Source of the DNA: Sanchytrium tribonematis
Lineage: Eukaryota > Sanchytriomycota > Sanchytriomycetes > Sanchytriales > Sanchytriaceae
DNA length: 36,362 bases
Reading direction: 5' to 3'
Assembly (NCBI GenBank): GCA_018985235.1
Contig: JADGIG010000034.1
Span: forward strand, 1-36,362
Below the pieces are notes generated by a model that did not search any database, was not told the origin of the DNA, and worked only from the letters and a program-made list of their open reading frames with translations. Below are positions 1,948-30,168 of the stretch, in pieces (within the stretch, counting starts at the first letter, position 1; every line of letters starts with the position of its first letter). The position numbers were made by a program, and so were the translations under genes.

Positions 1948-3580
1948 ATGTCCAACAGAAAAGGGTTTGTGCATCATGATGCAACATCTCCAAAAGAATC
2001 GGAAATAACTACCTATACAGAAAATACCACTACTCAATCGGTTCCTTCGCTGCGCGTCAAAGCAATTTCATTATCATTTATTGACCCACAAATGGAAAAA
2101 GGGTTTAAAAAATGGACTCTCCAAAAGTACGACAGATTTCACGTTTTTTTATACGCTATGATATTGATTTGGGTGTCTTTGTTATTTATATTTGATTATT
2201 TGGAACACGGTTTCGTAAGCCCAAATTATTTTAGAATTGGTTACTATGCTATTGCACTTATTGGGATTTTAGTTACAAAATTGACAACCAAGCATAATGA
2301 TTTTGTGGCTATAATTCTAATAACAATATTGCTCGTGTTATCTACAGGTGATGATGTCACAACATTCAATTCACTTTCTGATTTCTCAAGTTTGGAGTCG
2401 AATTGGTTTCCGATGCTAGTAATTCTCCATGCCAGCCTAAGTCTTATACACTCCCGTTCGTGGTTATATTTATTGATAGTTCCGACTTGCTACTTTGTAA
2501 GTTATTGTATTTCAAGATCATTTTTCCACACAAACAAGGTAAATTTGATTGATTTAGAATTGGTTAGACACTCAAACATTATGGTTATTATTAATGATAT
2601 TTTGCACAAGTGTGTCTGGTATGGTCGGTCAATTTCAACAACATTACCTAACAAGAAGTCTTTTTCGAGAGGAACGGATGCAAGGAAATCTTGGTGGTCA
2701 AAATAAGAGTGTAAGAAGCGAATACAAGCAGCATCTGCTATCCTTAAAATTCAAAGACAAGTCGCTGGAAAAAAAGTATTTGGCAACAAGATGGAGAGAA
2801 ACTATATTGACTAATAGACGATATTCAGCTTTCTTAGTATTGAATGCTGCGATTAGCATCATCTATGAACATTTTTGGAAATTTAATGATACCACAGTTT
2901 TAATGTACCGGTGTTTATTTCATGGCTTACCATTAATTGTATTAATGGCTGCCATTTATTTTATAAATCATACCAAAGAGCAAGAATTGAGTAAAAAATC
3001 AATAAGAGTAGCTTGGTTATACTCCGCAGTGAGAGAAAAAGTGGTTAATTACTATAGAATAACACAAGTCGGTTTACTTTTAGTATTTCTCAGCATATTA
3101 TCTGTTTATATACATCTAACTACATCTCAAAAAGATGCCCCGTTTGAGAGCGTTTTGATGCTTGTATATCTGCAATTCTGTGTTTCCACGCGATTTGGGA
3201 CTTCATACTTTCTTTTTGGAACAGCTGTACTTTTGATACAAAGCGTTGCAGTTTCGTTCTTTAGACCTGATGTTTCTAATTATGTTGTTGGAATTTTATT
3301 TAGTGCTGTAAATGCAATGATATTTATTAGATTAACTGCTTTAAAGAGAAGAAAGCTTTTTATGTTTGAGTCTTCAGAACAACATGGACTATTTACCCAA
3401 TTAGATACTCAAGTAAAAAGCATTGAGACTTTATCCACTGAATATAGACAGAGTTACGCTTCTAGTAATTTGAGCAAAGGCAATTTGAAAACTTCGTCAA
3501 ACACAAATTCAACTTTATCAAGCTCATCTGGTACAAGCTACAAATTTATGGAAAATGTCTTGAGTCTATATAGTGAATAA
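1948..3580 (+). CDS. 12-TM membrane protein with tandem 6-TM duplication; one 19-nt intron
   Basis: Read without splicing, this locus is two overlapping frames. Removing a 19-nt intron at 2539-2557 (phase 0) gives one 537-residue protein and restores a hydrophobic helix across the junction (NK then NWLDTQTLWLLLMIF). It has two similar halves. Each starts with an F-x-D-x-x-[ML]-E-K-x-[FY] motif (residues ~44-53 and ~262-270), followed by about six membrane helices. The first half ends with a Gly-Met-Val-Gly turn and a basic R-x-x-F-R-E-E stretch. Such 6-TM modules resemble the membrane halves of some class III cyclases, but no catalytic domain follows; that comparison is weak inference. The Ser/Thr-rich C-tail ends in LYSE. 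The stop TAA is inside AATAAA. Confidence 0.85.
2539..2557 (+). other. 19-nt intron in the 12-TM gene
   Basis: GTAAATTTGATTGATTTAG, phase 0. It has GT and AG ends and a TTGAT branch-like motif whose A is the sixth base from the 3' end. Its removal joins two frames that otherwise overlap out of register. Confidence 0.85.
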
Positions 3581-3610
3581 ATCTGTAATAGCTTAAAATT
3601 GGCCTGAAAG

Positions 3611-3617
3611 CCAATCA
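3611..3617 (+). promoter_or_regulatory. CCAAT box of single-pass membrane protein gene
   Basis: CCAATCA lies 48 nt before the ATG at 3666, the same orientation and almost the same distance as in STE12 and the gene at 4959. Confidence 0.5.
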
Positions 3618-3665
3618 CAGGATTTTCTCGTTCCTTTAAATCAAATCCCGAAAAGATCAATCCAA

Positions 3666-4250
3666 ATGAGCGTCTTTTTTATATCTATATTGGTTTTTGC
3701 AAGTATAGCTGACATTGATCCTAGTACATGGATGGATCCGTCTACCAAATCATCCTCATCTACTGGCCAACCCAGTACTAGTGTTCAACAAATTCCGGCG
3801 CCTTCCGATTCCCAGAAACCAACAGAATCGGCTAAATCAGGAAACAGCAACTCCACAACTGCAGCAAGCTTGTCTTCATCAAGCAGCTCAGGAGGAGCTT
3901 TACAAACTGAGTCCAATGATCAAAGTTCGTCAACAACAACGATTTCTATAATCGTAGGCTGTGCAGTTGCAGTATTATTTGGAATCGCGATCACATTTGT
4001 CTGTTGGAAAAGAAAGCGACAGGCTAGTAATCAAATAGAATTTGGAAATAAATTCGACACTCCGACATCAGCCAATTCAGATATTCCGCAGTGGAAAAGA
4101 TTTCCTTCGACTTACAATAATGTCGACGAACAAGGGTCAGTTTCTCAAATACAGTCCATTGCAGGAAAATCCGATTTTGGTGATTCCGTTTTCCGATCAA
4201 GACAATATGAATTCGAGGATTTTAATTCAATATACATGAGGTCAGGTTAA
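3666..4250 (+). CDS. Single-pass Ser/Thr-rich membrane protein (cell-surface sensor type)
   Basis: This is a 194-residue protein. The N-terminus (MSVFFISILVFASIAD) is a short signal peptide. Residues ~18-95 are extremely Ser/Thr/Gln/Pro-rich and likely O-glycosylated. A single membrane helix follows at ~98-117 with a KRKRQ stop-transfer signal, then a cytoplasmic tail of ~75 residues with several aromatic residues near its end (YEFEDFNSIYM). The architecture is that of WSC/Mid2-like wall-stress sensors, but no cysteine-rich WSC domain is present, so a sensor role is inference. The genes at 4959 and 33904 share this plan and a CCAATCA box at the same distance. Confidence 0.8.
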   Translation: MSVFFISILVFASIADIDPSTWMDPSTKSSSSTGQPSTSVQQIPAPSDSQKPTESAKSGNSNSTTAASLSSSSSSGGALQTESNDQSSSTTTISIIVGCAVAVLFGIAITFVCWKRKRQASNQIEFGNKFDTPTSANSDIPQWKRFPSTYNNVDEQGSVSQIQSIAGKSDFGDSVFRSRQYEFEDFNSIYMRSG

Positions 4251-4338
4251 AGACACAAGTATGTATCATTTTTCGTTTCAGAGCCTCTAATGAAATCATA
4301 GTTTCCCGTAATACAACTGGAGTAAAAGGGTAAAACGT

Positions 4339-4830
4339 ATGACTGACGGAAGATCTAAGGAACCAAAATGTTGTTGTTGCGGAGTTAGAATCGGGCTAGG
4401 TATTTTATTCGTACTATCATTGATTTTCGGAATTTTAGGATTAGTTGGACGAAATTATGGACAAGGTGCCTGTATGGTTGTTGGTGGACTAGTAGGGCTC
4501 TTTGCCGTAGTCAAAAAGAGCGTTAAAGCAGCTACATTTACATTATATTTCTTCATCTTAACGCAATTAATTTCTGTTGCATTTGGAATTTATTACATTA
4601 CAACAATTGGAAGTGCTGTTGATGCTGCTATCGATGATGCTAAAAAGAACAATGATAACACTGACTTATCTCCGGATCAAATTGAGTCATTGCGAGGTGC
4701 GACGAAGTCATACTACTACGCTATTTACATTATAGGTTTGGTGATTAGTGTCATCATTACTATATTAGTTTCGGAGAGAATGATTGCTTTCAGAAAGTGG
4801 CTTAAGACTAAAAGAAGTACCTACACTTGA
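4339..4830 (+). CDS. Four-TM membrane protein, unknown function
   Basis: This is a 163-residue protein. A Cys cluster (KCCCCGVR) at residues 10-17 precedes the first helix and is a candidate palmitoylation site. Helices lie at about 18-36, 41-57, 65-88 and 125-144. Between the third and fourth there is an acidic, Asn/Asp-rich loop of ~35 residues. The tail is short and basic. The layout recalls small tetraspan proteins, but I see no CCG tetraspanin signature and assign no family. TGA is followed at once by AATAAAT, giving a very short 3' UTR. Confidence 0.75.
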   Translation: MTDGRSKEPKCCCCGVRIGLGILFVLSLIFGILGLVGRNYGQGACMVVGGLVGLFAVVKKSVKAATFTLYFFILTQLISVAFGIYYITTIGSAVDAAIDDAKKNNDNTDLSPDQIESLRGATKSYYYAIYIIGLVISVIITILVSERMIAFRKWLKTKRSTYT

Positions 4831-4903
4831 ATAAATTATTGAAAAACGATTGAATTGTATACAAGCATTTTGTTTTTCACAAATTTGATTTTTTTCCTGT
4901 TAT

Positions 4904-4910
4904 CCAATCA
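4904..4910 (+). promoter_or_regulatory. CCAAT box of single-pass membrane protein gene
   Basis: CCAATCA lies 48 nt before the ATG at 4959, identical in orientation and distance to the box at 3611. Confidence 0.5.
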
Positions 4911-4958
4911 AGATACATTTCAAGTCTTGAAAAGAATCACGGTTCTCTCCAAACGAAA

Positions 4959-5621
4959 ATGATCTTTGTTGGTGGATTGAGTGCCCTAGCTACATTAGAT
5001 CAAGTTCACGATTTTATACAAACTGTGTCGCCTAATCAGGATATTCGAAATTGGGACAACTCGTTACAAGATAAGGTTGAGAAATTAACGGAATCTGGAA
5101 TTGCTGACTCATCAGTATCCACTACCAATACCACAGTACCTGCAAGTACCACGTCTACTGATGTTTCTGAACCGACGCCGACAGTTGCTGTGTCGACTGA
5201 ACAAGATAGTGGTGGACAGGATAGCCAAAACAATGGTGATGATTCTAACAGCTCCAACAGCAGCTACAATACCTATTATGTGGTAGGAGGTGGTTGTGGC
5301 GCTGTTGTACTTGGGGGAGTTGTCGTATTTTATCTACATCGTAGAAAAAAAGCAGAAAAAGATATTTCTGGAGTTACCAGCGATTCGTCCTATTCTTCTG
5401 ATGTTGAGGAAAATGAAAGCAGAGTCACGCCAACACTTTATATGAGTGACGAGGAGCTGCAAAATTGTTCTGCTCGAAGTTCGATTTTGAGAAATGAGTA
5501 TCTCAATACTGACTCAATTATGGAAGGAAGTGTTTACTCCGAAGTTTCTGGAGTGGCAAGATACTCAAGCATATCTGAACCCTACTCAATATATTCTGAA
5601 AATTTATCTTCTGATGCTTAA
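4959..5621 (+). CDS. Single-pass Ser/Thr-rich membrane protein with Tyr/Ser-rich tail
   Basis: This is a 220-residue protein. The N-terminal signal (MIFVGGLSALATL) is weak but hydrophobic. Residues ~50-105 are Ser/Thr/Val-rich, the membrane helix lies at ~107-126 (glycine-rich) and the stop-transfer sequence is HRRKKAEK. The ~95-residue cytoplasmic tail is acidic and repeats Tyr-Ser pairs (SSYSS, VYSEV, RYSSI, PYSIYSE). This motif style recurs in the tail of the protein at 33904 and at the C-terminus of the 12-TM protein. It is probably a surface or wall protein; its function is unknown. AATAAA lies ~20 nt past the stop. Confidence 0.75.
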   Translation: MIFVGGLSALATLDQVHDFIQTVSPNQDIRNWDNSLQDKVEKLTESGIADSSVSTTNTTVPASTTSTDVSEPTPTVAVSTEQDSGGQDSQNNGDDSNSSNSSYNTYYVVGGGCGAVVLGGVVVFYLHRRKKAEKDISGVTSDSSYSSDVEENESRVTPTLYMSDEELQNCSARSSILRNEYLNTDSIMEGSVYSEVSGVARYSSISEPYSIYSENLSSDA

Positions 5622-5670
5622 CAAATGACAAACTCATGCTGCAATAAATCAGGTCTGTTTACGTTGTGTC

Positions 5671-6582
5671 ATGAAACACTTTTTATCAACTATTATTTGC
5701 AGCCACTTATTTTTCGTCCCTGTGCTTTATTTTGGCTTATTCTTTACATCAGCATGGCACTTGGCTATAATTTACATGATTTGGATAATGCTAGATAGGT
5801 CGCCTTTCAAATTTGGGAGGTACAATAATTTCATGAGAAATCTAAGAATTTTCAAAAATTTTGGTGAGTTTTTTTCCAGTGAAATTGTTTGCGATGTGCC
5901 TTTAGAAGATAAGCAGTACATGTTTGCTTATTCACCTCACGGGATAATCGGAACAGGGTCTTTTTTATCGTTCGGAACAAATGCCAACGGATTGACTAAA
6001 TATTACAAACGTCCGGTGAGGGTTTTGACAATCGATTTCAATTTTTACATGCCAATTTTTAGAGATGTATTTATTTTACTAGGTTATTTGAGCTGTAGCA
6101 AAGAAACTATGCAAAAAAATTTGAAAGAAGGCAATTCATTGGTAATTCTACCTGGTGGTGCTCAAGAGGTAACTTACTTTGATAAGAACAACATCAATGT
6201 TATCATAGACAAACGCTATGGTTTTTTTAAATTGGTTATTGAGAATGGAGTAGATCTTGTTCCCGTTTTAGGTTTTGGAGAAAACGATATTCACAGAATT
6301 ATAAATATATCGCATCCAGTCATTGTCAAATTACAATCAATTTTAAAAACTTATTTCGGATTCATGGCGATTCCTTTTATTGGAGAGTATGGCTTTATAC
6401 CATACAACAAAAAATTGACAACAGTTATTGGATCACCTATCTCGGTTAAAAAAAATTCAAAACCACTAGCAAGCGACATAAGATCCCTACAAGAGCAATA
6501 CAAAGCGGAGTTACTACGAGTATTTGACAAATATAAGAGTTTATATGGCTCTCATGTGAAATCTTTAAAGGTGGTAGAATAA
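5671..6582 (+). CDS. DGAT2: Diacylglycerol O-acyltransferase, DGAT2 family
   Basis: This is a 303-residue enzyme of the DGAT2/MOGAT family, which makes triacylglycerol from diacylglycerol and acyl-CoA at the ER and lipid droplet. Two N-terminal helices (~5-42) anchor it. YSPHG at 87-91 is the family's [HY]-P-H-G-type catalytic motif. PGGAQE near 155 and RYGFFKLVIENGVDLVPV followed by GFGEND (~175-200) are the other signatures. Length is near the family norm apart from a short N-terminus. The stop (GAA TAA ATC) lies in AATAAA, and the next gene's stop on the other strand is 1 nt away. The acceptor could be mono- or diacylglycerol. Confidence 0.9.
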   Translation: MKHFLSTIICSHLFFVPVLYFGLFFTSAWHLAIIYMIWIMLDRSPFKFGRYNNFMRNLRIFKNFGEFFSSEIVCDVPLEDKQYMFAYSPHGIIGTGSFLSFGTNANGLTKYYKRPVRVLTIDFNFYMPIFRDVFILLGYLSCSKETMQKNLKEGNSLVILPGGAQEVTYFDKNNINVIIDKRYGFFKLVIENGVDLVPVLGFGENDIHRIINISHPVIVKLQSILKTYFGFMAIPFIGEYGFIPYNKKLTTVIGSPISVKKNSKPLASDIRSLQEQYKAELLRVFDKYKSLYGSHVKSLKVVE

Positions 6583-6583
6583 A

Positions 6584-7745: not shown

Positions 7746-9869
7746 ATGTTTGTGAGTGTTTACAATCTCTTCGAAATAGCCATAATGGGTATTCAATTTC
7801 TATCACTTACGGCTAGTTACAATGTTGTCTGGAATAACGATTGGATTGGAATTGCTAAAGTTCTTTCTTTTTTTACACAAATCCCGATAACAGAGGATGT
7901 TAGAATTCAGCACGGTTATATTTCTTGCTTATTTCCTTTGGTAATCAGTTTGATTGTTTTATTAACTTTCAAACCTCTTTTTACTGTTTTTAAGGATGTA
8001 GTATCACTCTTTTGTTGGGCAGGACTAGGATTTGGGATATACGAATCAACTTCAAAAGAAAATGTTTCTTTGGGATTCCAGCTAATCAGTATATGTGGAG
8101 CAATATTAGGAATTTTACTCGCTGAAGCCATTATCAAAAAACTTTGGAAAAGGAGAGCAAAAAAGCTTAATCGAGCAGAAAGCTTTGATACCGAGCCAGA
8201 CGATTCAAACAAAAAACCCTTCTGGAAGCAGCTGAGAAATTTATCACTCTCTGGAATATTCATATTTGTTGCAATATTGGCGATCCAGTCCTCACAAAGT
8301 TGGTGGTATATCTTAATATTATTTGCTTGTAGCTCTCTCCTTCTCTACAATTTTATATCTAATTTAGTTCCCAAAGGAAGAGAGTTGAACTCTAAAATCA
8401 ATTATCTTTTCCGAAAGCACACAACAAAAATCATATTAACTATTCTAAGTGCTTTTTATATTCCTTTAACTCTTGATTGCTTACAATTTATCCTGCCTTC
8501 TAAATACCTTCTATATGGAAAGGATATAACTTGCACTTCGAATCAAATAATTAAAATGAAAATGCCCTTTCCTCCAGCCACCTTTGACAGCCTGATGTGC
8601 CTAGAGTCTTTTAACAACAATACTAATCATGTAAGCCTAAAAATGAGCAATTATCATCTTAGTGTTGACTTAAATCAAGAGAGATTTTACCAATCTGATA
8701 CTACCATCCCACTTTATAGTGAGGTGTATCCTTATTTGTTTCCAAGCAGCTTTATTATTTTTGCCCTGGTTTCCATAGGTCTCCCATTTTTATATTACAA
8801 GCTGGTAAATATATGCTATATTTATTTACAAGAATTACCCAAATACAACATTTCTGAGAAAAGTCAGGACTGGGGTGTCGCATCGAAATTATCCTCAAAC
8901 TGTTGCAATTCGCTTTATTGCAATTTGAATGAAAAATTCAAGGATTTTAAATTGATGATGTTGGCTTTTAGACTTTTGGTTGTGATTGTGACAAGTGCGA
9001 CCTATGTCCCAAATATTGAAGGAAACGGATCTCAATATGTATTTATAATATTAGTATTTGTACATTTTGTTATATTAGCTTCAGAAATATATTTTAGGCC
9101 CTTTACGAATTACACGGAGAATTTCTTCCTCTTTGGCTTTCAATTTGTCAATTTGGTGTTTGTAATTTTCGCAACCTTATCGGCATATAGGACAAATCTT
9201 CCAGCTGTCTTACCATTTGTGACTTTAGCTGTTATAATATTGGTGCCTATTCTGGCAATTATTGTAGGATTTTCATATGATCTTTACATTAAAAAGAAAA
9301 AAACTGAAATTGATGCCTCCTTTACTAATGTCGATGCTAGCAAAGTGATTTTGGATTTGGATATGAAGATTGACAAAAAATTACAGTCTCTAGTAGTGTT
9401 CTATTTTGCGACCCTGTATGGATTAATATTTGTAGGTTCTGCTGTGTATTATTATGGTACCACTAAGAATTTCTTCACCTTCAGGTTCTCGAATGGTAGA
9501 ACCAATGGTAACATGGAGGTGACTTTGAAAGAAATGACTAGCTTAGAAGACAAATTTCAATTTGGAAGATCTTGCGAAGATATTTCTATTTTATTGAAAA
9601 ATTGTAACTGTGTTAATATTCCACAAGTATACAAACTCAATAGTACCGAGGTCTGGAAATGTGATCAGGTTGCCTATGCTGATCAACTGCTAATTTTAGA
9701 ACGAACTACAGAAAGTAACTTTATGGATTTAAACTTCAAAATACGCCCATTTTGTTCCAACCAATTTGATACAAACTATTTATTGAGTAACATGACTCTT
9801 CGAAAGGAACCAATTGCAGATTTAGTTAATTTTGATGATTTTAATTCAGAATGGATAAAATTTTGCTGA
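7746..9869 (+). CDS. Large polytopic membrane protein, possibly channel-like
   Basis: This is a 707-residue protein with some 14-15 hydrophobic segments. Four or five lie in the first 250 residues. A lumenal or extracellular domain of ~80 residues with Cys and N-glycosylation sites (NNTNH) follows. A block of helices spans ~345-510, and one late helix lies near 550. The C-terminal ~145 residues are soluble, Cys-containing and rich in N-x-S/T sites, so probably non-cytoplasmic. A YFRPFTNYTENF turn between helices (~450) resembles the R-P-[YF]...N motif of fungal TRP-like and polycystin-like proteins; this is a weak resemblance and I assign no family. An in-frame TAG immediately before the ATG fixes the start. 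No AATAAA is close to the stop. Confidence 0.75.
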   Translation: MFVSVYNLFEIAIMGIQFLSLTASYNVVWNNDWIGIAKVLSFFTQIPITEDVRIQHGYISCLFPLVISLIVLLTFKPLFTVFKDVVSLFCWAGLGFGIYESTSKENVSLGFQLISICGAILGILLAEAIIKKLWKRRAKKLNRAESFDTEPDDSNKKPFWKQLRNLSLSGIFIFVAILAIQSSQSWWYILILFACSSLLLYNFISNLVPKGRELNSKINYLFRKHTTKIILTILSAFYIPLTLDCLQFILPSKYLLYGKDITCTSNQIIKMKMPFPPATFDSLMCLESFNNNTNHVSLKMSNYHLSVDLNQERFYQSDTTIPLYSEVYPYLFPSSFIIFALVSIGLPFLYYKLVNICYIYLQELPKYNISEKSQDWGVASKLSSNCCNSLYCNLNEKFKDFKLMMLAFRLLVVIVTSATYVPNIEGNGSQYVFIILVFVHFVILASEIYFRPFTNYTENFFLFGFQFVNLVFVIFATLSAYRTNLPAVLPFVTLAVIILVPILAIIVGFSYDLYIKKKKTEIDASFTNVDASKVILDLDMKIDKKLQSLVVFYFATLYGLIFVGSAVYYYGTTKNFFTFRFSNGRTNGNMEVTLKEMTSLEDKFQFGRSCEDISILLKNCNCVNIPQVYKLNSTEVWKCDQVAYADQLLILERTTESNFMDLNFKIRPFCSNQFDTNYLLSNMTLRKEPIADLVNFDDFNSEWIKFC

Positions 9870-14156: not shown

Positions 14157-14987
14157 ATGATTTTTCAAAATATCGACTGGAGTCATTACATATATTTTGG
14201 AATCGCGATCAATGCGAATTTACAGGGATTAATTATGTCTCCTTTGCTACTTATGAAGGATTTTAAACGAAATTGGTTTATTGTGATATCTAATATTCTA
14301 TATTTCATTGGAAACTGGGTCTCATTTTTCGGTAATTCCATCGATTGTGACACGGCTATGTACGTAGTACAATTAACGATAATCACAGGCTCAATCTTTG
14401 AGGTTCACACGCCTCTTGTACGCGCTTATAAATTATTGGAAGGTAAGTTGAAGAGGAGCATTCCAATACTTAGTGGATCTTTAATTATATGTATATTCTG
14501 CAGTCTCGCTGGCATTCATAGTATGTGCTACACAAGTTCGTCTCATTTTGTGAAAATATTTGTTTCGATTGTTCCAGACTTGATTGCTAGTATATTTTCC
14601 ATTTCGATTTATTTGATCTCATTTTGGAAAATCATTGAACTTATTGATAGCAGTGAATTTGGCAAGGACAATCCTAAGATGCAAATGATAAGAGCCATAG
14701 CCAAATTTTCTATGTATTTTATGGTATTAGTACGATGTTGCATGATAGGATTTTCAATAGGAGGACTCGATACAAATCAAAAACTTTCCACTGCTTTAAG
14801 AACTAATCTAGTTGTGTTCTTAATGATAGTACAACTAACTCTAGAGCTCACCAAGTCATCAGGAGAAACATCTGAACGAAGTGATGTTGAATCAGTTGGA
14901 AAAAGAAGAAATACTAGAGACGATTTCAAGGATAATAACAAACAATCTGTAAAGCCAACCCAGTCATTTGCTATAATGCACGAATAA
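14157..14987 (+). CDS. 7-TM protein, member 2 of a local family
   Basis: This is a 276-residue protein. Helices lie at about 12-32, 40-59, 67-87, 102-121, 134-157, 183-203 and 213-232. The conserved FGIAINANLQG is at 14-24 and TNLVVFLMIVQLTLEL at 216-231. The IFEVHTPL stretch at 80-87 is shared with member 3 (LFEAHTPL). A hydrophilic, charged C-tail of ~40 residues follows. Paralogue of the next gene (head-to-tail, 57 nt apart) and of 12830-13540. I do not recognise the wider family; a lineage-specific receptor is plausible but inferred. The stop (GAA TAA ATT) lies in AATAAA. Confidence 0.8.
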   Translation: MIFQNIDWSHYIYFGIAINANLQGLIMSPLLLMKDFKRNWFIVISNILYFIGNWVSFFGNSIDCDTAMYVVQLTIITGSIFEVHTPLVRAYKLLEGKLKRSIPILSGSLIICIFCSLAGIHSMCYTSSSHFVKIFVSIVPDLIASIFSISIYLISFWKIIELIDSSEFGKDNPKMQMIRAIAKFSMYFMVLVRCCMIGFSIGGLDTNQKLSTALRTNLVVFLMIVQLTLELTKSSGETSERSDVESVGKRRNTRDDFKDNNKQSVKPTQSFAIMHE

Positions 14988-18828: not shown

Positions 18829-20503
18829 ATGATTTATAGCGCTATATACTCTGGAGTTCAAGTTTATGAAATTAGAGTGAGAAACGTGGATGTAATGAGA
18901 AGAATGGAAGATAACTGGGTGAACGCCACACAAATTTTGAAAGTAGGAGATATTGATAAGCCTCAAAGAACTAAAATACTTGAAAGAGAAGTGCAAACAG
19001 GAAGACACGAAAAAGTTCAGGGCGGCTATGGAAAATATCAGGGAACATGGGTTCCATTTGAACGTGGTGTGCAATTAGCTAAAGATTACAATGTGTACCA
19101 TGTCATGAGTGAGATATTGGAATATATACCCGGCGAATCACAAATACAGCAAAAGAGATCACTGCCATCTAACCCAACCCCAAAACCACCCAAGAAAAAG
19201 AAGACTAGTAATTCTACTGCAATTTCCACCACAACCACAAGAAAAAATAATGTATCTAACGAATCTAAAAGCATTCCTACCGCTACATTTACTTATAATG
19301 TTCCACAGCCAAAAGACTATCGAGACCTTCTGATCAAATCGCTTCTGGAAAGTTCAATGGGTACACCGCCGTTTCTGTTAAAATTACCTCTGGATCTGGA
19401 TCTACAAATGAATTTGGACGCACAAGGACACTCGGCATTACACTGGGCATGTGCTCTTGCAAGAGTAGACATAGTCCGACACTTGTTGAAGATAGGAAAA
19501 GAGCGAAATGTAAATTTAAAACATCACCTTAATGTATTTGGACAATCCCCGCTTATGCGAGCCATCATGTATGCAGATAATTATGAGGAAAAAAGATTTC
19601 CGGAACTATTGGAAATGTTCAAGGATTCAATTTTCTCCATTGACTATATGAATCGCACAATCTTGCATCATATTGCCATAGTTTCTGGCGATGAGGGTAA
19701 GCAAGCCGCTTGTAATTATTACCTGAAATGCATTTTTGAGCTTCCAATTCAAGGTAAAGAAAAATTGCTGGACTTTGTTGATTTAGACGGACTTACCGCC
19801 CTTCAATTAGCTTTTATTAAGAAAAACAATAATTTGGCTAAAATTTTAATGAATTCGGGAGCCAAGCCTCCATCAATCTCGACACGTCCACTGGCTCAGC
19901 CAGCAGATCCTAATTCTCTCACTTACTTGGAAAATTTAAATTCAAGTTACTCTTCCCAAATATCACTATCACTGAAAGAGGCCAGAGAACTCAAATCTCA
20001 GCTAGACAGTCTGCAAAGTGTGGCTGGAGATTACTTAAATCAATACGAGCGTGTTAAAGCTATGAATAATGACCTGTCAAAACTTAAAGATCGAGAAGAA
20101 ACTTTAAAGAAGACTTTGAAGAAACTCAAGGTAGACATGTTTGATTTGGATATTAAAAATTATGTAAGAAAACATCCTAATTTGGAAATTCCATCAGACA
20201 ACTTAGACTTAAGAAATTTCGCATCTGAATATGTCTTGTCTTCTCAAAAGCCTGAAGTTCTAAGCCAAATGGCAAAAAATCTCCCGAAATTGAAAGAATA
20301 TGTCGAAAAGCAACAATTTCCAAAAGCCATGCTCGATGAGTGGGTGAACACTGTTGCAGATGGACATAAGGATGAAATAATTCGAGAAGGTTAATATTAT
20401 TCATGTAGATAACAGAGGAATTTCAAAGCTGAATCTATTGAAGAACATTATGACCAAAATATGTAACGTGAACGAGGCAGAATTAATAAAATTAGCACAA
20501 TAA
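18829..20503 (+). CDS. MBP1: APSES-ankyrin cell-cycle transcription factor (Mbp1/Swi4 type); one 19-nt intron
   Basis: I start at the ATG of [15 protein letters not shown], which aligns with the APSES family opening; the frame upstream lacks ATG. Residues ~1-105 form the APSES/KilA-N DNA-binding domain ([25 protein letters not shown]). A PPKKKKTS nuclear signal follows, then ankyrin repeats (~205-350: [40 protein letters not shown]) and a coiled coil (~385-440). Unspliced, the frame stops at 20394. Removing a 19-nt intron (20390-20408) adds a 31-residue helical tail ([15 protein letters not shown]...) as expected of Mbp1/Swi4 C-termini. Its stop, CAA TAA ATT, falls in AATAAA. Total 551 residues. 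It would drive G1/S genes. Confidence 0.92.
20390..20408 (+). other. 19-nt intron in the APSES gene
   Basis: GTTAATATTATTCATGTAG, phase 1 (splits a GAT codon). It contains the stop of the unspliced frame. Branch-like TTCAT with its A sixth from the end. It lies 95 nt before the true stop. Confidence 0.85.
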
Positions 20504-21360: not shown

Positions 21361-23635
21361 ATGAATCAATTAAAAGAAGCCTTTTCTAACAAAGACATAA
21401 ACTTGTTACTAAAAAGATGCAAATTGGTGTTAAATTCTTCAGGAAATGATGCCAAAGATTTGAATTCATTAGGGGTTGAAATATGGAACTCAGCTGTAAA
21501 GTTGCAACTGGATAAAAGATATAAAATATGCGCTTTTATATTGATGGCCGCATATTTTAAAGATTCTTATGATTTCAAATCTTCTATTAAACTTATTGCG
21601 ATGGCAGGAAGATTGCTTGCTGAATCGGAAAAAACAGACTGTGATTATATCTATGGTCTTGTATCAAATAGAATTGATCAAACTCTTGGAATGCTAAAAG
21701 CTAAGAACAAGTACCAAAAATTTGTTGCTGATATTGTTCCGATTTTGCTTTACAAACTAAAACAAGGTTGGTTTGAAAATGACCTTTCAATATCAATTCT
21801 TCATATTGAAAAGTTCATGCTGGTTCAAACATCTAAAATTGAAAAAGAACAATTATTGATGTGCATTCTCAATTTATACAGGTCAGATCAGCCTACAGAC
21901 GAAACTCAGTTGACTTTATTGTCGTTGCTTGAAAATTTAGCAAATGCCAGTGATAATCCTTTCGCAGCAAAATACTACTTGATTATCAGTGAGGTAAATT
22001 TGAAACTTAACAAAATAGAAGAAGCCAAATGTGCTCTGATTAAATCTTCTGAGGCGCAAATCATGTTAAAGGGGATTTTTCTAGCACTGACAATACCCAA
22101 TTTTCTCAACACATCCCCAGAAACGTTTCTATTCGAGTGTTTATCAAAAATTGGTATTGTGCATGAAACCTACAACGATGTTGCTTTGTTGTATAATGAA
22201 GTTTGTAAAATTTCCAATGAACTTGCTCTTGCCTATTTAACTGCTGTATTCTCAAGAAGTCGAGCACACCCTGCAAAATGTAAAGATTTAACTAACAAAA
22301 CTGCTTCTTTGATGTTAGAATGTTTGATAGGAAATGAAGACACAAAGCAAATCAACATTTTCATTGAAGACATATTTGAGACCATCAATGATGCAAAGCT
22401 TTCTAATAGTATTTGCATATTATTATGGATAAAGGGGGATGATTGTTTATCAAATTTTGAATACCAAAATGCTTTGAATTATTTTGAGCCATCTCTGAGA
22501 TTATTAAAGCCCGAACAAGATAATTATCTGATTCTGAAAAAGAAAATCTGTTTCTGCAAACTGCAATTAGGTGCTTTGGACTCCAGCGATATTTTAGACG
22601 ATCCGTTCCTATCGTTCCAATACAACTTGCTGTTTAGTATTTCAAATTGTTTTGGTTTAATTGAAAGTATGGAAGACCCTAATGTATTAATTGGATGTGC
22701 TTCTCTAGCTTTTCAAAAAAAAGAATCAAAACTTTTATTGTGTATTCTTGATAAAATTCATACTGTCTGCAGCAAAGGCGATTTGGATATTTGTTTGACA
22801 AGGGCAGCGATTCGTTTAGCCATCAAAGTAGATTTAAACATTGAATTGATCATCTCGATTCTTAAGAAAGCCGATAATCAACTTGATAAAGAGGAAATGA
22901 ACTGGTTTTACAATGTCACTTGGAATCTTTGCCTACAAATATATCAAATAGATCAAATATCTGCTTTTAGGTTGCTTGAAATCAACGTAAATTTTGCAGC
23001 AACAACAGATTTAAGAATTAATAGCCTTTTGTTCATGTGTTCTATAGGCTATGAGATTTTTGAGCAATATAACGTTGATCACATTTTAACCGATATTGAC
23101 AATGCTTGTAATCTAATAGCGGAAAATAATTTGACAGACTTGATCGAAACCTCGGCAAAAATGCAGTTAGAAATTTATATGTTATTTCAGAAGGAGCAAG
23201 AAGCGTTAGATCTCTTACCGTGCTTTAAGTCATTACAGCCCGGAATCTTAGTTGAAGTGTTGGAAAATAGCTGTATTTCGATAAAATGTAATTTTATTTA
23301 ATTAAGTTGCGATTCCTCTTTTAGAAACGATTTTATTGTCGAACAATATAGTAGCCATTTCCAAGGCGTTGCGAATTTTTATATCGAATCATAAAGAAGT
23401 TGACCATTTGCCTTATTTTAAAAAGGCCTTGGCTTTTGTTCACGATAAGGCGTATTGTCAAGAGGAACTTATTTGGCTCATGATAACTGCTTGGAATAAA
23501 GGGATTAATGAGTTCACTTTATACAAAAAAGTAGGCGAATGGTGTGATATCGCATTTCAAATCCTAAAGCATCTGGATAATAAGGAACAATACCAAAAGC
23601 AAATGGAAACTGCATATATCGAGATGATGCAATAA
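21361..23635 (+). CDS. SPO22: SPO22/ZIP4-like meiotic TPR protein; one 19-nt intron
   Basis: The unspliced frame ends at 23301, and a second open frame to 23635 continues it. Removing 19 nt at 23288-23306 (phase 1) gives one 751-residue protein with an uninterrupted helix across the join (SCISIKFAIPLLETILLSNN). It is all-helical and TPR-like throughout. The C-terminal EELIWLMITAWNKGINEFTLYKKVGEWCD is the conserved end of the SPO22/ZIP4/TEX11 family, which acts in synaptonemal complex assembly and crossover formation. Its presence implies a meiotic cycle. The stop CAA TAA ATC lies in AATAAA. Starts 48 nt after RPS3. Family call rests mainly on the C-terminus and repeat character. Confidence 0.8.
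23288..23306 (+). other. 19-nt intron in SPO22
   Basis: GTAATTTTATTTAATTAAG, phase 1. Branch-like TTAAT with its A sixth from the end. The alternative acceptor at 23323-23324 would create a TAA at the junction, so the shorter intron is preferred. Confidence 0.85.
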
Positions 23636-23848: not shown

Positions 23849-26434
23849 ATGATCCAGTTTTTGTTATTTGTGGTAGCTATTACCACACCAGTGGATTTAG
23901 AGTCTTTCTGTATTGAAATCGCGGACTTTTTCGCAACTTTAAATGCATATCGGACTTGGAGTGATACATATTGCACTAACACCACATTTCCGACTTTCTT
24001 TGGAGTTATTTACAATGACGCAGATTATATAATAGATTTCAACACTCTAGTCATACCTGGAACATTTGACTTTGCTAAGATCCCGTATGTTGATCAATTA
24101 ACTTACATAAGATTGAATGGAAATGAGATTACAGAAGTGGTGAATACAACATTAGCAGTGAATTTGAGACAATTGAGCGTCGCTAATAATTTGTGCACTT
24201 CAATACCACTATTACCCCAAAATCTAGCTGTATTTGAGTTTGACGGAAATCCAGTTCAAAACAGAAGCTACCTACCAGAATTACCACCTCGACTTGAGTC
24301 ACTTATGATAAGGTATTTGAGCTTGAACATATCATTGCCTCATCTTCCCACATCTCTGCGTTTTGTCGATATAGAATACAACACGTTCTATGGATTACTA
24401 CCAGATCTGAGTACTTTTTCGAATTTAACAAATTTCAAAGGATATGGTAATTATCTGACAGGCTCTCTTCGTTTACCAGAATCCGTTTTAGAATTACGCC
24501 TGAGTGGAAATGGGCTAAATGGGACTCTTCCAATACTACCTCATAATTTACAGACATTTATTGTCAATGGCAATCATTTCACAGGAACTTTGCCTAAATT
24601 CCCAGTTTCTATTCAAAACATTAGACTCAAAAACAATCGTTTAGAAGGAAATGTAAATTTAACAAATCCAAATTTGCAAATTGTAATTTTAAGTGGCAAT
24701 TTATTTTCAGGCACTCTGCTGGTTGACAGTTTGTCATTAACGCATTTAGATGCATCAGACAACTATTTTGAAAATGCGACCATTATTGCTAGTCAGTCGT
24801 TTTTCACCCCCCTCGACTGCGTGTTGACACTAAATAGAATTTATCTGGCTGAAGTAAGTGATCCAAATATTAAAAGTTGTGACATTACTTTTAGAAACGA
24901 TACCTTACCTTCAAATACGTTTTTGTCAGAAACAATATTAAAGAACAGCTTTTCTACGTTTTCCACAGTTTTAAATTCGTCAACCCAAATTGAGAGCCTT
25001 GCAAGTTACAATGGCGACACATTGACTGCAGAAGTTGCTGCGTCAACTTATGAAGTTGTTTTATCAATCTCTGAAAATACAGCATCTTCGAATTACCATG
25101 AGAGTGTGTCATTCGGCACAAATGATCTTGCTCCTACCGCTACTTTATCATCAGAGAATCTTTTACTGTCAAATTTTTATAGTAGTGAATCTACCGATAC
25201 AAATCCAATTACACAGACCAGTTTTCACGAAGGCTTATCGAATATAGTAGATGTTATTACCAACACTAACTCTCTAGATTCGCTTACCACTGTTGACTCC
25301 ACCAGTAGTTACAGTAGTTTCACCTCTAGTTTGGAAAATTCATATATGTCTAGTATTCAAAATTCGTCTCAATTATCTTCTAAAATGTTAATTTGGCAAA
25401 AAGCAAATATTATAACGATGGAATCAACAATTGTCTCTACAAGACCGATCGAATTAGCAGATTCTTCAATTGAAATTAAAGAGACGGCCATTGTCGTCAC
25501 TCGATTTAAGCAATTTACTTACAGCCACGAAGATCTAAATGTCACAGAATCGAAATCGAATGAAATTATACAAGTCTTTGCTAACCCGCCAAAAAACTTA
25601 CCTAAAAATTTTGTCAACAATAATTTAAGCGATCGTTTTGTTATACTTTTAAATTCCGAAATAGACCCATCCACAATTGTAGGAATTTTAATCGCCGGCT
25701 TGGCTTTGGTGACATATATAATATGCTTAATAGAAAGAAAGAAGACACTTGTTAAGCAGTTCAGCTTGCTTTTGATCAGTTTTTTATTTGTTGGAATATT
25801 AATATCATGTCTAGGACTGGTTTTTAATATACCAGGTTACTTCTGGGCTCGAAATATTTGCAAAGAAACTGGAATGTGGTTAGCTACGTTGTCTTTTATG
25901 TCTTATTATGCCCGAATTTTCTTTATTGTTGAAAGGCCAATCAATAGTAAGTTATTGACTAGGTTTTCCAATTTAGCGATTACTTGGTATATAACCCTGT
26001 TATTAGTTATATTGCCGACTCTGATTGTAGCTTTAACTTCCATATTCACATTCGATAATCAGTTTGTGCCAGTAACATTTGGGTGCATAAGGCTTTTAAT
26101 GCTGCTTAGATTCACCACAAGTGTCTTTCTCGAAGAATCAAAATTACTGCCATTTAAACCGGTCTTGGCGCTTCTGATATTAAGCGCTCTAGATTTGGTT
26201 TTTACGTTGCCATTAGAAATAACTAGTGAAGTTGCATTTGGCTTAGCCTCAATGTCTGCACTATTGGGCTACTTGCTTGTAGCTTTTTCATTGGTAGGTT
26301 GGAAACGGAAAGCAATGGAGTTACAGTCAACTAAATTGGCTTCGCAATTCACAAGTGTTTCTAAACATTTGGGACCTATATTCTCCTGGACAAAACAACC
26401 CGTAACGAAATCTGAGATTAGATCGAAACAGTAA
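23849..26434 (+). CDS. Leucine-rich-repeat ectodomain fused to a 7-TM domain (receptor-like)
   Basis: This is an 861-residue protein. The signal peptide is MIQFLLFVVAITTP. Residues ~60-320 hold about ten LRRs of the plant/fungal extracellular type (LRLSGNGLNGTLPILPHNLQ, FIVNGNHFTGTLPKFPVSIQ), capped by Cys. Residues ~340-600 are a Ser/Thr-rich, probably O-glycosylated stalk. From ~608 to 835 there are seven hydrophobic helices. Between helices 2 and 3, FWARNICKETGMWLATLSF resembles the Cys-x(n)-Trp start of TM3 in class C GPCRs; this is suggestive only. The C-tail is short and basic. It looks like an LRR-containing GPCR-like sensor, unlike animal LGRs. The stop is followed by AATAAA. Confidence 0.82.
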   Translation: MIQFLLFVVAITTPVDLESFCIEIADFFATLNAYRTWSDTYCTNTTFPTFFGVIYNDADYIIDFNTLVIPGTFDFAKIPYVDQLTYIRLNGNEITEVVNTTLAVNLRQLSVANNLCTSIPLLPQNLAVFEFDGNPVQNRSYLPELPPRLESLMIRYLSLNISLPHLPTSLRFVDIEYNTFYGLLPDLSTFSNLTNFKGYGNYLTGSLRLPESVLELRLSGNGLNGTLPILPHNLQTFIVNGNHFTGTLPKFPVSIQNIRLKNNRLEGNVNLTNPNLQIVILSGNLFSGTLLVDSLSLTHLDASDNYFENATIIASQSFFTPLDCVLTLNRIYLAEVSDPNIKSCDITFRNDTLPSNTFLSETILKNSFSTFSTVLNSSTQIESLASYNGDTLTAEVAASTYEVVLSISENTASSNYHESVSFGTNDLAPTATLSSENLLLSNFYSSESTDTNPITQTSFHEGLSNIVDVITNTNSLDSLTTVDSTSSYSSFTSSLENSYMSSIQNSSQLSSKMLIWQKANIITMESTIVSTRPIELADSSIEIKETAIVVTRFKQFTYSHEDLNVTESKSNEIIQVFANPPKNLPKNFVNNNLSDRFVILLNSEIDPSTIVGILIAGLALVTYIICLIERKKTLVKQFSLLLISFLFVGILISCLGLVFNIPGYFWARNICKETGMWLATLSFMSYYARIFFIVERPINSKLLTRFSNLAITWYITLLLVILPTLIVALTSIFTFDNQFVPVTFGCIRLLMLLRFTTSVFLEESKLLPFKPVLALLILSALDLVFTLPLEITSEVAFGLASMSALLGYLLVAFSLVGWKRKAMELQSTKLASQFTSVSKHLGPIFSWTKQPVTKSEIRSKQ

Positions 26435-26450
26435 TAAATCTTGACTTTTT

Positions 26451-27819
26451 TTATTCCTTATACGATTTTTTGGTTCTTTTCCGAAGATTTCTTGTTTCAC
26501 TGTCTTCACTTCCCAAAACATCTGATTGTAAAGATAGTGTTTTGTGAATCTTAGACTTAGACCTTTCTTTAGTGGGGGCGGAGTAAGAGACACTTTTAGG
26601 CAGATGTGGTGTTTGCTTCGAATTTAGGGTATCTACTAATACGAATTTGTATATTGCGAATAATATCAAGAATATCGCAAAGAGAGCCCAGCCCACGATA
26701 ACATGCGGTGGGAAAGGTTTTGGAAACATTCCTTTCCCAAATTTGATAACTATTAATAATTCTGTGGTTATTGCTGCCAGCATAACCCACGCATTTGGAC
26801 CTAACCTTTTACTACATAAAACTTAAATACTCAGATTCGTTTAAATAATGATATGCTTCTCTGACTGCTGGGAGAGCCATAAAATAAACCCAGACCAATC
26901 TCTGGGTGTTTAAAGGATGCTCTGGTGGAATATGTAGTACAAATTTCAAATAAAAGGCATTTAACTCGCAAAGCAATACAGTCATTGCAATTAAAATTAA
27001 ACCAACATAATGCCTAAATGTACTGGTGAAATGCCATTCAAATCTAGTCCAAGAATGAGGTGTGAATTGCTGAAACGACCGATAAACTTTCCCTTTTATG
27101 GTTGCTATAGAGGAAATTCCAGTCCATGAATATTCTTTTAGCTCCAAATATCTACATGTTTTCATTCCAAGAACTATCCCAAGATAATTGCAGACCATGA
27201 CATCTAATATCCAATGATCCCACCAACATTCTTTGAAATTAGGTAGCTGGTGTTCAAATGAATATTCTAATAGTTCAAATCCAATCGATAACCCCCAACA
27301 TAGGTAATAATCCCGTAACAACAGGGCTTTGAAAAACCATCCGAATGCATGAGCAATCACAAAAATGTCCATTTGCCTCATTACATTCGCATAATTTAAA
27401 TCGCACGAGTCTCCGTAACTTCTTTCCGTCAAGGTTTTTCCAAGTGTGTTGTCATAAGTTTTCAGCATATACATAACATCACTTTTTGATTGAGATAAGG
27501 TGAAAATTAAGATTTGTAAATAAATGATAGCACAACCAAGTACACCTCTCCAAAGTACCGGATGTGGTCTTAAAAAAGGCCCATTTTTAAACTGAACCAT
27601 TCCAAAGACAATAAATATAGTTGCGCTGCTCAATATTCCATACTTTACATTTTCAACAGTTTCGAAAGGGAAGAACGCGATATAAAAGAGCGCAGCCAAA
27701 ACCATAACTAGCACACTAAAAGAATGTGGGGTATATAAAAATTGAATATCAACGTCTTCCGTATCCATGCTGAGGCGTCGCGGGATATTTGGGAGAGGTG
27801 CCACTGAATTAGAAGACAT
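26451..27819 (-). CDS. PTDSS1: Phosphatidylserine synthase, PTDSS1/2 type; one 19-nt intron
   Basis: The frame from 27819 stops at 26812, and a second frame continues to 26451. Removing a 19-nt intron (26812-26830, phase 2) gives a 449-residue protein whose junction (LNESDKRLGPNAWVMLAA) matches the base-exchange family. FRPHP-like LRPHPVLWRGVLG, NFKECWWDHWILDVMVCNYLG and GMKTCRYLELKEYSW are PSS hallmarks, with about nine helices. The C-terminus is basic and Ser-rich. These ER enzymes exchange serine for choline or ethanolamine on phospholipids; yeasts instead use the unrelated CDP-DAG-dependent Cho1, so this type is typical of animals and some early fungi. I use the ATG at 27819. The stop GAA TAA lies in AATAAA. 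Confidence 0.92.
26812..26830 (-). other. 19-nt intron in the PSS gene
   Basis: On the gene strand GTATTTAAGTTTTATGTAG, phase 2 (GA|T). Branch-like TTTAT with its A sixth from the end. Its removal skips the stop of the first frame and joins the two halves of a well-conserved enzyme. Confidence 0.9.
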
Positions 27820-27979
27820 AGTGTGTTTCAAAAATTTTGCACTATTGCTGCAAGCATACCAAATCTCTTATGACTACGGCTTGGATATTCAGTTTAAAAC
27901 ATAAACAATATTATTGTTGACAAGGATGAAAAGTTGAGGTAAAAAATTTTATTTACAAGGCGGATAAAACAAAGTTCCA

Positions 27980-28459
27980 ATGGAAAAACTTGCTTCAGCT
28001 CTCAAACCACAAGTAGCTACAGAATTATTTGGATTTTTAAAACAACACCAAACTCTTAAACAAAAAGTGACGCAGCTTAAATCGCAATTAAATGTCAAAT
28101 TAGATTTTACTCCTAAACAAGGTGACTATGGAAAACATGTTAAACAAGCCGAGCAAGTTTACAAATCTTTTAAACCCAAGTCGGTAGATACTTCTGTCGC
28201 ATTGGAAAATATTTCTAAATTTGAGAAAGTTGCTTTAAAGAGAGCGGAAGAGACTTCCAAATTGGTTAGTCAGAGTGTTTCTCAATACAAAGAGTGCTTA
28301 CAAAACATTTCCAAAGCTTTACCTGTCGAAGAGTTGACTTTGAAAGATGTGGAGAAAGCATTCCCTGAAGTAGATGAAAAAGTCACCGAATTAGCCAATA
28401 AAGGTGAATGGTACAATGAGAATTACTATGGAAAATTCGGATCCATGAGAATTTTCTGA
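27980..28459 (+). CDS. ATP7: Mitochondrial ATP synthase subunit d
   Basis: This is a 159-residue, helical, charged protein of the peripheral stalk of the F1Fo ATP synthase. The spacing and content match yeast Atp7: YKSFKPKSVDTSVALENISKFEK in the middle, LPVEELTLKDVEKAFPEVDEKV and KGEWYNENYYGKFGSMRIF at the C-terminus. The N-terminus is a little shorter than in yeast and lacks the LDW motif; a different 5' end cannot be excluded. It is expressed divergently from the PSS gene across a 160-nt promoter that contains a perfect palindrome at 27904-27918. Confidence 0.88.
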   Translation: MEKLASALKPQVATELFGFLKQHQTLKQKVTQLKSQLNVKLDFTPKQGDYGKHVKQAEQVYKSFKPKSVDTSVALENISKFEKVALKRAEETSKLVSQSVSQYKECLQNISKALPVEELTLKDVEKAFPEVDEKVTELANKGEWYNENYYGKFGSMRIF

Positions 28460-28487
28460 GTAAACTATGTTCAGAATTTATTTACAT

Positions 28488-28928
28488 TTAAATTTGAGAC
28501 AAAATCTGTTTCCTATCATTTTCCTTAAATACAACGGAATGGACTTTTCTATGCCTAAATGACATAAGAATCTTTTTAGGATAACAAGGCAAGCTCTGAG
28601 ACTCTACTGCATTCAATTCTTGCTGAAGGCTCACATTCTTTGGCCGTTTTCTATAATTATTCGAGAATTCTTCAGCCCGTTCAATTCTCTGGTCATAATC
28701 CAAATATGAGTAAGTTGTGCAAAATACTGCACATCTCAATAAGTGTGATTTATATGCATAAGGCCGCGAATTAAGTTTTAGTCCCTTTTTACAAAATTGA
28801 CAAGCTACATGCAGACTATGCACATTTCTTTGATGTCTCAACATTGTGCACCGTTTTGTAAATCTTTTACCGCAGAGATTGCACTCTTCCATCTCTTTGG
28901 AGTGATTTAATATATCCATTATATCCAT
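28488..28928 (-). CDS. Small C2H2-type zinc-finger protein
   Basis: This is a 146-residue protein. Residues ~16-37 (CNLCGKRFTKRCTMLRHQRNVH) are a good C2H2 finger. Residues ~43-66 (CQFCKKGLKLNSRPYAYKSHLLRC) look like a second, variant finger with a longer loop and a terminal Cys (C2HC). The remainder is basic and unstructured-looking (FRHRKVHSVVFKEN). It is probably a nucleic-acid-binding regulator; targets unknown. AATAAA occurs ~10 nt past the stop. Convergent with ATP7, 28 nt apart. Confidence 0.7.
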   Translation of the reverse strand: MDIMDILNHSKEMEECNLCGKRFTKRCTMLRHQRNVHSLHVACQFCKKGLKLNSRPYAYKSHLLRCAVFCTTYSYLDYDQRIERAEEFSNNYRKRPKNVSLQQELNAVESQSLPCYPKKILMSFRHRKVHSVVFKENDRKQILSQI

Positions 28929-29121
28929 TTAAGTGATATTGAAGTTTTAAAATGTCTTGGCAGGTTTAACCTAGACGTATAACGTATTTTATTTGAATGC
29001 GATACAAGAAGTCAAATATATGGCTTCCTTTCATACATAGTGATTCAGGCAAGAAGTGATTAATAAATTTAATAAAAATTTGTAACGGAGTTTATAAAGC
29101 AACAAGAACCAATTATAATCG

Positions 29122-29195
29122 GTCTCAGTGGGCAAGAGGTTTACGCCGTTGCTCTCCGGAAGCAAAGATCGGGAGTTCGAATCTCTCCTGAGACG
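29122..29195 (+). tRNA. trnR-CCG: tRNA-Arg (CCG)
   Basis: A full cloverleaf can be drawn. Acceptor GTCTCAG pairs with CTGAGAC, discriminator G. The D stem is GGC/GCC. The anticodon stem is TTGCT/AGCAA with loop CTCCGGA, giving anticodon CCG, which reads CGG (Arg). The variable loop is AGATC. The T arm is GGAG-TTCGAAT-CTC with one G-U pair. No intron. The internal B box (GTTCGAATC) is intact. A TTTTT terminator lies at 29216-29220. Confidence 0.93.
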
Positions 29196-29215
29196 ATCTT
29201 CCTTCTAAAATAATA

Positions 29216-29220
29216 TTTTT
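29216..29220 (+). terminator. RNA polymerase III terminator
   Basis: TTTTT, 20 nt after the tRNA. The convergent SEC13 stop codon begins only 8 nt further on. Confidence 0.6.
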
Positions 29221-29227
29221 GACTTGT

Positions 29228-30168
29228 TTATTGCTCACTAAATTCTTTAACTAATCCCCATTCACCATTAACTTGTTGCTGATACATATATACCTAAATT
29301 AGTATTGTAATACTTTGTTATCTCCACAACTAGCAGCCAATATTTGTCCCACCAAGGACCAGTTGACTCTCCAGACTACGTCTTTCAAAGAAATTTTTTG
29401 AATTTTAAATTCCTGATAATCGGATGTAGCATATATGTAAACATTTTTATCTTGCGAGCAAACAGCCAAAAATTGTCCAGGTAATCCTATTGAAGGTGCG
29501 CAACTAACATCTCGAACCCAGTCACCGCATAATCCAATTGGTTTCGGAGTCCATTTCGCCTGTCCTTCATCAACGTGCCTGGTCCATAAAATCACTTTAT
29601 TGTCAGACCCACCAGTTATAAGCCTTAGATTGCTGGAAACGCTTTCAGATCTTTTAACCAAAGAATTTGATTTTACAAAAGGAACAAAAGAAAGAGAGGT
29701 ACATCCTAAATGATGAGCTTCAAATGAATCAGTACTCCATTGCTTTGTCGATTCGTCGTAATATATTAAGGCAACACTTCCATCACTACATGCTCCACCA
29801 ATGATTAGCCCATACTCAACATCAGCAAATTCTACTTGATTCATACTCTTTTGTCCGCTATATTGGTATACTTTTTGCCAATGGTCACTGAATTTATAAA
29901 TGTTGATTTGCTTGTCATAGCCGCAAGTTGCTAGAAGATTATATTTTGGATGTGAAAATTGGACATTCCAAACTGGGCCAGAGTGATCTTTTAATACGTC
30001 TTGTAAAACATAATTTTGTGGCCCACTGGAACTTGTCGTCTTGAAAATTCTGACTGTCTTATCACTAGATCCAGTGGCTAATAAGGTACCATGGTAATTA
30101 AATGCAGCAGAATGTATCACATCTTCATGACCAGAATCAAACTCGTTCTTGTTGGATAATTTCTCCAT
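29228..30168 (-). CDS. SEC13: COPII/nuclear pore protein SEC13; one 20-nt intron
   Basis: This is a WD40 protein of the COPII outer coat and the Nup107/Nup84 nuclear pore complex. The N-terminus (SGHEDVIHSAAFNYHGTLLA) and repeats such as DHSGPVWNVQFSHPKYNLLA and LCGDWVRDVSCAPS are diagnostic. Unspliced, the frame ends at GDNKVLQY (29299). Splicing a 20-nt intron (29294-29313, phase 0) replaces this with GDNKVYMYQQQVNGEWGLVK..., matching the conserved Sec13 end (family pattern GDNKV, then GKWE). Total 306 residues against 297 in yeast. The stop, CAA TAA ACA, lies in AATAAA. Divergent from the coiled-coil gene at 30230, 61 nt apart. Confidence 0.96.
29294..29313 (-). other. 20-nt intron in SEC13
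   Basis: On the gene strand GTATTACAATACTAATTTAG, phase 0. It contains the classical TACTAA branch motif with the branch A sixth from the end. Removal restores the conserved Sec13 C-terminus. This is the strongest of the five intron calls. Confidence 0.93.

Follow-up and report, generated by a model that had tools for sequence, protein, structure and literature searches.

How small an intron can a seemingly ordinary spliceosome handle, when donor, branch point and acceptor must all fit within 19 nucleotides (nt)? The question is raised by a 36,362-nt stretch of the genome of the parasitic sanchytrid Sanchytrium tribonematis (contig JADGIG010000034.1; hereafter the window), in which five genes appear to need the removal of a 19- or 20-nt segment to give a full protein. 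A sequence-only reading of the window had proposed that these segments are spliceosomal-type introns; a direct check of the sequence finds all five where that reading placed them, each starting with GT and ending with AG, and the frame of each host gene is continuous once the segment is removed. Given a length peak, a shared motif and conserved junctions, no rival explanation comes close to that of spliceosomal-type introns of this size, and we put the probability that U2-type spliceosomal introns have here shrunk to 19-20 nt at about 0.95. The introns and their host genes are listed below (aa, amino acids; coordinates are those of the window).

2539..2557, plus strand: intron 1, 19 nt, phase 0, branch-point-like A at 2552 (TTGAT)
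1948..3580, plus strand: host gene of intron 1, a multi-transmembrane (multi-TM) membrane protein, 537 aa when spliced
20390..20408, plus strand: intron 2 (APSES gene), 19 nt, phase 1, A at 20403 (TTCAT)
18829..20503, plus strand: host gene of intron 2, an APSES/KilA-N and ankyrin regulator
23288..23306, plus strand: intron 3 ("SPO22" gene), 19 nt, phase 1, A at 23301
21361..23635, plus strand: host gene of intron 3, 751 aa
26812..26830, minus strand: intron 4 (PSS gene), 19 nt, phase 2, A at 26817
26451..27819, minus strand: host gene of intron 4, phosphatidylserine synthase (PSS), 449 aa (PF03034, 360 bits, cut-off 25)
29294..29313, minus strand: intron 5 (SEC13 gene), 20 nt, phase 0, A at 29299 (CTAAT)
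29228..30168, minus strand: host gene of intron 5, SEC13

The same lengths stand out elsewhere in the assembly, which holds 6,336,753 bases in 311 contigs (the window being contig C240). A test sample of 236,362 bases joined the window to the initial 10 kb from each of 20 further contigs, out of 310 besides the window. A model of codon periodicity, with long reading frames as its training set, could cut introns of 10-60 nt between any chosen donor and acceptor pair under a flat length prior. With GT..AG and a penalty of -5 the model called 69 introns, among which 19 nt accounts for 12 and 20 nt for 6, each remaining length being called at most three times; the control pairs CT..AC, GA..AG, GT..AC, TG..GA, GT..GA, TG..AG, GA..GT and AG..GT gave 0, 0, 2, 3, 2, 1, 0 and 7 calls at the two lengths together, the 7 for AG..GT perhaps being a partial re-reading of the same sites. 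If the control mean of 1.9 is taken as the expectation, 18 calls have a Poisson chance of about 2e-12; with the worst control as the expectation, the chance is about 4e-4. Stricter penalties keep the peak (11 of 35 and 8 of 23 introns), until at -14 just 6 introns are left, one of them of 19 nt, with no clear pattern, the coding signal being weak per base. Because none of the calls is a window intron, the length peak owes nothing to the finding in the window.

The motif was built from other contigs as well: 14 of 20 first-round candidates of 19 or 20 nt served as seeds, chosen for a GTA start (the 6 non-GTA candidates were dropped), and a later matrix drew on 22 candidates, one of them of 16 nt. 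When the window was scanned with the later matrix on both strands at 18-21 nt, six sites scored above 9, and four of these are the introns of the multi-TM (13.1), "SPO22" (11.7), PSS and SEC13 genes. A run combining the motif with a flat length range of 16-80 nt called 35 introns, of which 19 measure 19 nt and 5 measure 20 nt, while the remaining 11 are singletons, each with a length of its own; one seed (L020, 3825-3843, minus strand) was not called again. The final set of 26 introns comprises 24 model calls together with the APSES and "SPO22" introns, which were added by hand; 21 of them lie outside the window, and by length they divide into 21 introns of 19 nt and 5 of 20 nt. Apart from these two sizes the 236 kb shows no prominent length, either at 10-60 nt under the flat prior or at 16-80 nt with the motif, and lengths up to 120 nt were covered at the strictest penalty only; nearly all introns of the genome probably belong to this class. 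With 26 introns and 158 predicted genes, the sample has about 0.16 introns of this kind per gene, or about one per 9 kb; extrapolated from a sample assumed to be typical, the 6.3 Mb would contain some 700.

The anatomy of the 26 introns is uniform. GT..AG ends are present in all of them by requirement of the search, and the donor reads GTA in 25, partly by selection, with T at +6 in 18. A branch-like YTNAY places its A at -6 in 26 of 26, a position already found in 14 of 14 seeds, which were picked before any 3' motif was used; the 3' end fits YTNAYNHAG in 25 of 26, the exception being the HDAC intron, whose junction is nevertheless exact. GC content is 21% in the introns as against 35% in the sample, phases 0, 1 and 2 are represented by 8, 10 and 8 introns, and retention would bring in an in-frame stop in 20 of 26. 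Within their genes the introns tend towards the 3' end: their relative position averages 0.69 and 21 of 26 fall beyond the midpoint, a distribution to which detection bias may contribute.

Conserved proteins provide a test of the junctions that is read from the homologues. In SEC13, where the sequence-only reading had claimed that the spliced junction (GDNK/VYMY) matches the family, the solved SEC13 chains bear this out: ILAASCGDNK followed by VYMYQQQVNGEW is matched gaplessly by each of the four chains for which an alignment was available. Outside the window the junctions of SNF1, homogentisate dioxygenase (HGD), RPB1, SF3B1, HDAC and NADPH oxidase are likewise gapless, which makes seven of the nine genes tested against solved structures, PSS and alpha-glucosidase II being the exceptions. 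The same claim had been made for PSS (YLNESD/KRLGP), and there it stands only for the flanks: YHYLNES.. on one side and KRLGPNAWVML on the other fit the homologues, while right at the junction one residue is missing relative to synthase 1 (PSS1) and two relative to synthase 2 (PSS2) in solved structures. Among 22 aligned rows, 19 are database relatives extending beyond the junction, and most of these have one extra residue there. No alternative GT..AG cut at this junction would supply the missing residue, and the relative P0002, 77% identical, terminates at the same boundary; for these two reasons we read the gap as a probable small local deletion.

Relatives from other assemblies carry traces of the SEC13 intron. 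The SEC13 search found three close non-self relatives at 80-84% identity in local alignment, P0122 (EukProt), P0123 and P0124 (both from ENA), and all three track the query up to GDNKV and then diverge abruptly, as unspliced frames would. A co-encoding test asked for one DNA that encodes both the read-through peptide of the relative and exon 2 of the query, with intron lengths of 10-40 nt and GT and AG ends required; P0122 fits 12 exon-2 residues and P0124 fits 8, both solely at 19 nt, and P0123, which ends four residues past the boundary, falls outside the test. These fits place a 19-nt intron in P0122 and P0124 at the position of the SEC13 intron of the window. The relatives from EukProt probably belong to Amoeboradix gromovi. 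Relatives of the lineage derived from ENA are 82% (P0123) and 80% (P0124) identical in SEC13 and 68% (P0242) in Prp8.

A signal at the gene ends speaks to the same point. The stop codon lies within AATAAA in 37 of 117 frames of at least 200 codons that do not end near an intron, as against 16 of 692 out-of-frame TAA. In the 26 intron genes the spliced stop lies within AATAAA in 10 and the unspliced stop in none, and AATAAA at -3 to +40 of the stop is found for 18 spliced stops and for 0 unspliced ones; in the window, all five spliced stops and none of the unspliced ones lie in AATAAA. Examples of TAA within AATAAA at window gene ends are 3578-3580, 23633-23635 and 29228-29230. A TAA embedded in this poly(A)-signal-like hexamer is a sign of 3'-end compaction, and a similar overlap of stop and poly(A) signal is found in Trichomonas.

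The genome also encodes several components of a spliceosome. Matches to the small nuclear RNAs (snRNAs) U6, U2 and U1 score 61.8, 115.9 and 43.7 bits; the 5' end of U1, AUACUUACCU, is perfect, and GUAGUA in U2 and ACAGAGA in U6 are intact. Prp8 is full length at 2224 aa in an intron-free frame, and the C-terminal part of SF3B1 is present. With these components, the segments would be excised from RNA by pairing of U1 with a short GTA..T donor and of U2 with YTNAY, the adenosine being fixed at -6; the acceptor would be the first AG after the branch, two nt separating the branch motif from AG, and there would be no room for a polypyrimidine tract.

Several observations weigh against this reading. 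The uniformity of the set is partly one of construction, since the seeds were chosen for GTA and the final set was picked by motif, and motif decoys are not depleted in exons: uncalled matches of 14-40 nt number 51 on the sense and 51 on the antisense strand. At 19 nt there are 5 sense matches and 1 antisense, at 20 nt 2 on either strand; some of the uncalled sense matches could be further introns. All five window introns were missed by the flat-prior model, which is insensitive, yet its length peak is independent of them. Among the splicing components, the U1 score is under the gathering cut-off (43.7 vs 69.5) and the U2AF large-subunit model was matched below its cut-off only (51.6 vs 310.3), while U4, U5 and the SF1 helix-hairpin domain had no match in a search in which the control set was equally silent, so that absence does not follow. 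To these are added the one- or two-residue gap at the PSS junction and a gap of one residue in alpha-glucosidase II, which lies four residues downstream of the junction. The overall odds rest on SEC13 and on the junctions from other contigs, and the PSS gap therefore leaves them unchanged.

The five window introns are not equally secure. The APSES intron is the weakest: its 5' end is an atypical GTT, its score of 7.2 with the 14-intron matrix is reached by 47 of 2304 GT..AG segments of 19 or 20 nt, and it is absent from the calls of every gene-model run; the spliced stop of its gene sits in AATAAA, as in the other four window genes. For intron 3 the motif-aware model favoured a 34-nt intron with an identical acceptor, and the SPO22 label given to its host gene by the sequence-only reading finds no backing, no SPO22 family being among the Pfam matches at E<=1. 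The protein of the first gene, described in that reading as having 12 transmembrane segments, matches nothing but a part of the conserved domain of adenylate cyclase (24.0 bits vs a cut-off of 21.1).

Three other explanations would account for broken frames that a short cut repairs. The genes might truly end at their unspliced stops, the frames downstream being decayed or separate; the APSES gene, which gains just 31 residues by splicing and has a weak motif, could be read in this way. Under that explanation, however, RPB1, SF3B1, HDAC, SNF1 and HGD would lose conserved parts, and unspliced stops would have to do without the AATAAA that accompanies 18 of the spliced ones and none of the 26 unspliced ones, which makes real stops very unlikely. 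Translational bypassing, in which ribosomes would hop over 19-20 nt kept in the mRNA, is known from certain genes of phages and of yeast mitochondria. Protein-level evidence alone cannot separate hopping from splicing, and 20 of 26 segments contain an in-frame stop; the GT..AG ends, the U2-complementary branch motif at a fixed distance and the presence of U1, U2, U6 and Prp8 in the genome nevertheless leave bypassing highly improbable.

The remaining alternative is error, single-base insertions or deletions from assembly or amplification that break frames, with chance GT..AG pairs nearby mimicking introns. It draws on the way in which the two published sanchytrid genomes were made, by whole-genome amplification and SPAdes in single-cell mode, as stated in the available part of Galindo et al. 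2021 (PMC8371127). Errors, however, offer no reason for a common length of 19-20 nt or for a GTA..YTNAYNNAG motif, and they are disfavoured by the conserved position of the SEC13 intron in relatives from other assemblies; we regard this explanation as having next to no chance.

That the lineage is fungal, as the sequence-only reading had assumed, is upheld by the placement of Prp8 and by a transcription factor. In a plain-model Prp8 tree of 45 rows the clade branches at the midpoint root and its branch is long, and the long-branch warning led to a mixture-model tree of 23 rows, in which Prp8 is placed with Fungi as against holozoa and others at a support of 100 in the Shimodaira-Hasegawa-like approximate likelihood ratio test (SH-aLRT), one long row being flagged. 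Prp8 and its relatives stand on a very long stem of 1.85 changes per column. The PSS tree is weakly resolved at depth. A Pfam scan finds an encoded STE-like transcription factor, a family that we take to be fungal. The TPPP frame (contig C34) is 174 aa from its first M, and the reported TPPP lengths, in the part of the source available, are 174 aa for S. tribonematis and 180 aa for A. gromovi (PMC10459994); the agreement with the former points to S. tribonematis.

Ultrashort introns are an established phenomenon in other eukaryotes. Nucleomorphs (18-21 nt), heterotrich ciliates (15-16 nt) and mikrocytids (16-17 nt) are listed as the short extremes, with no fungus named, in the portion consulted of one survey (PMC10245619). 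The sequence-only reading had held that such introns are known mainly from nucleomorphs and heterotrichs; both are indeed on that list, and the mikrocytids were left out. One close match is the chlorarachniophyte nucleomorph, which shares the length range and narrow spread seen here (19 nt in Bigelowiella natans; PMC2483917, in part), but it is a relict algal nucleus inside another cell, whereas the introns described here belong to the main nucleus of a fungus. Mikrocytid introns are likewise uniform, ultrashort and conserved in sequence, and occur in parasites; they are two to four nt shorter, their hosts are Rhizaria rather than Fungi, and a strongly reduced spliceosome is reported for them in the portion consulted (PMC10245619), whereas here at least Prp8 is full length. 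Heterotrich ciliates share a fixed tiny intron length, although theirs is shorter, and they are free-living large cells with large genomes, unlike the sanchytrid.

Among Fungi and their kin, the claim that no such introns had been described in a fungal lineage agrees with the literature searched, in which none was found, subscription papers lying largely outside that search. Microsporidia, parasites related to or within Fungi, also have short introns, which are called few and relatively short in the survey excerpt (PMC10245619); theirs measure 23-52 nt in E. cuniculi and 24-33 nt in O. bayeri, the shortest found in print being 23 nt, and often lie at the 5' ends of ribosomal protein genes, according to the part seen of PMC2784321. 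The introns here, by contrast, are of 19-20 nt and occur in varied genes, for the most part in the 3' half. No fungal intron below 23 nt appears in the available parts of PMC3486916, PMC3749934, PMC4435813 and PMC10815200, most of which give no lengths. In Yarrowia lipolytica the branch motif is followed, as here, by two nt and AG without a polypyrimidine tract, but the introns are rather long (PMC2483917, same part).

Some further observations concern neighbouring sequence. A tRNA gene at 29122-29195 is the single Rfam match in the window at gathering score. Three long frames, 23849-26434, 14157-14987 and 7746-9869, have no Pfam family above cut-off, their best match being a leucine-rich repeat (13.3 bits, cut-off 20.6), and look receptor-like or channel-like by eye only. 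The mitochondrial contig C311 measures 24,986 base pairs (bp), with a GC content of 25.6% in 8,016 bases examined; the published mitochondrial genomes, in the part of the paper at hand, measure 24,749 bp (25.86%) in S. tribonematis and 27,055 bp (30.69%) in A. gromovi (PMC8371127). The excess of 237 bp over the former is perhaps a repeated end. The cox1 matches on C311 fall into four pieces about 1-1.3 kb apart, with 13 in-frame TGA and one TAG, which suggests large organellar introns and TGA read as Trp.

The consequences reach into annotation. Such proteins are cut short both by gene finders that impose a minimum intron length and by prediction from plain reading frames, as the database SEC13 and PSS of relatives illustrate. 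TransDecoder does not model splicing. The sanchytrid proteins were predicted with TransDecoder on contigs, and in the available part of Galindo et al. a word beginning with "intron" occurs once, within a reference title (PMC8371127); a catalogue made in this way from plain reading frames would miss introns of 19-20 nt. Sanchytrid gene counts and claims of gene loss may therefore need new annotation.

If U2-type introns of 19-20 nt occur throughout this fungal genome, as the sequence evidence indicates, their mechanism is known in kind and their setting is new in the literature searched. If the reading is true, extreme intron shrinkage arose in Fungi too, in a nuclear genome that is not that of an endosymbiont. 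It is fairly likely that this extends to a whole fungal phylum: its spliceosome would be tied to one intron size, nearly all introns being of 19-20 nt with a branch A at -6; it would be an ultrashort lineage apart from those in the literature searched and the first in Fungi, and the published proteomes would miss several hundred splice events, some of the reported gene counts and losses being artefacts.

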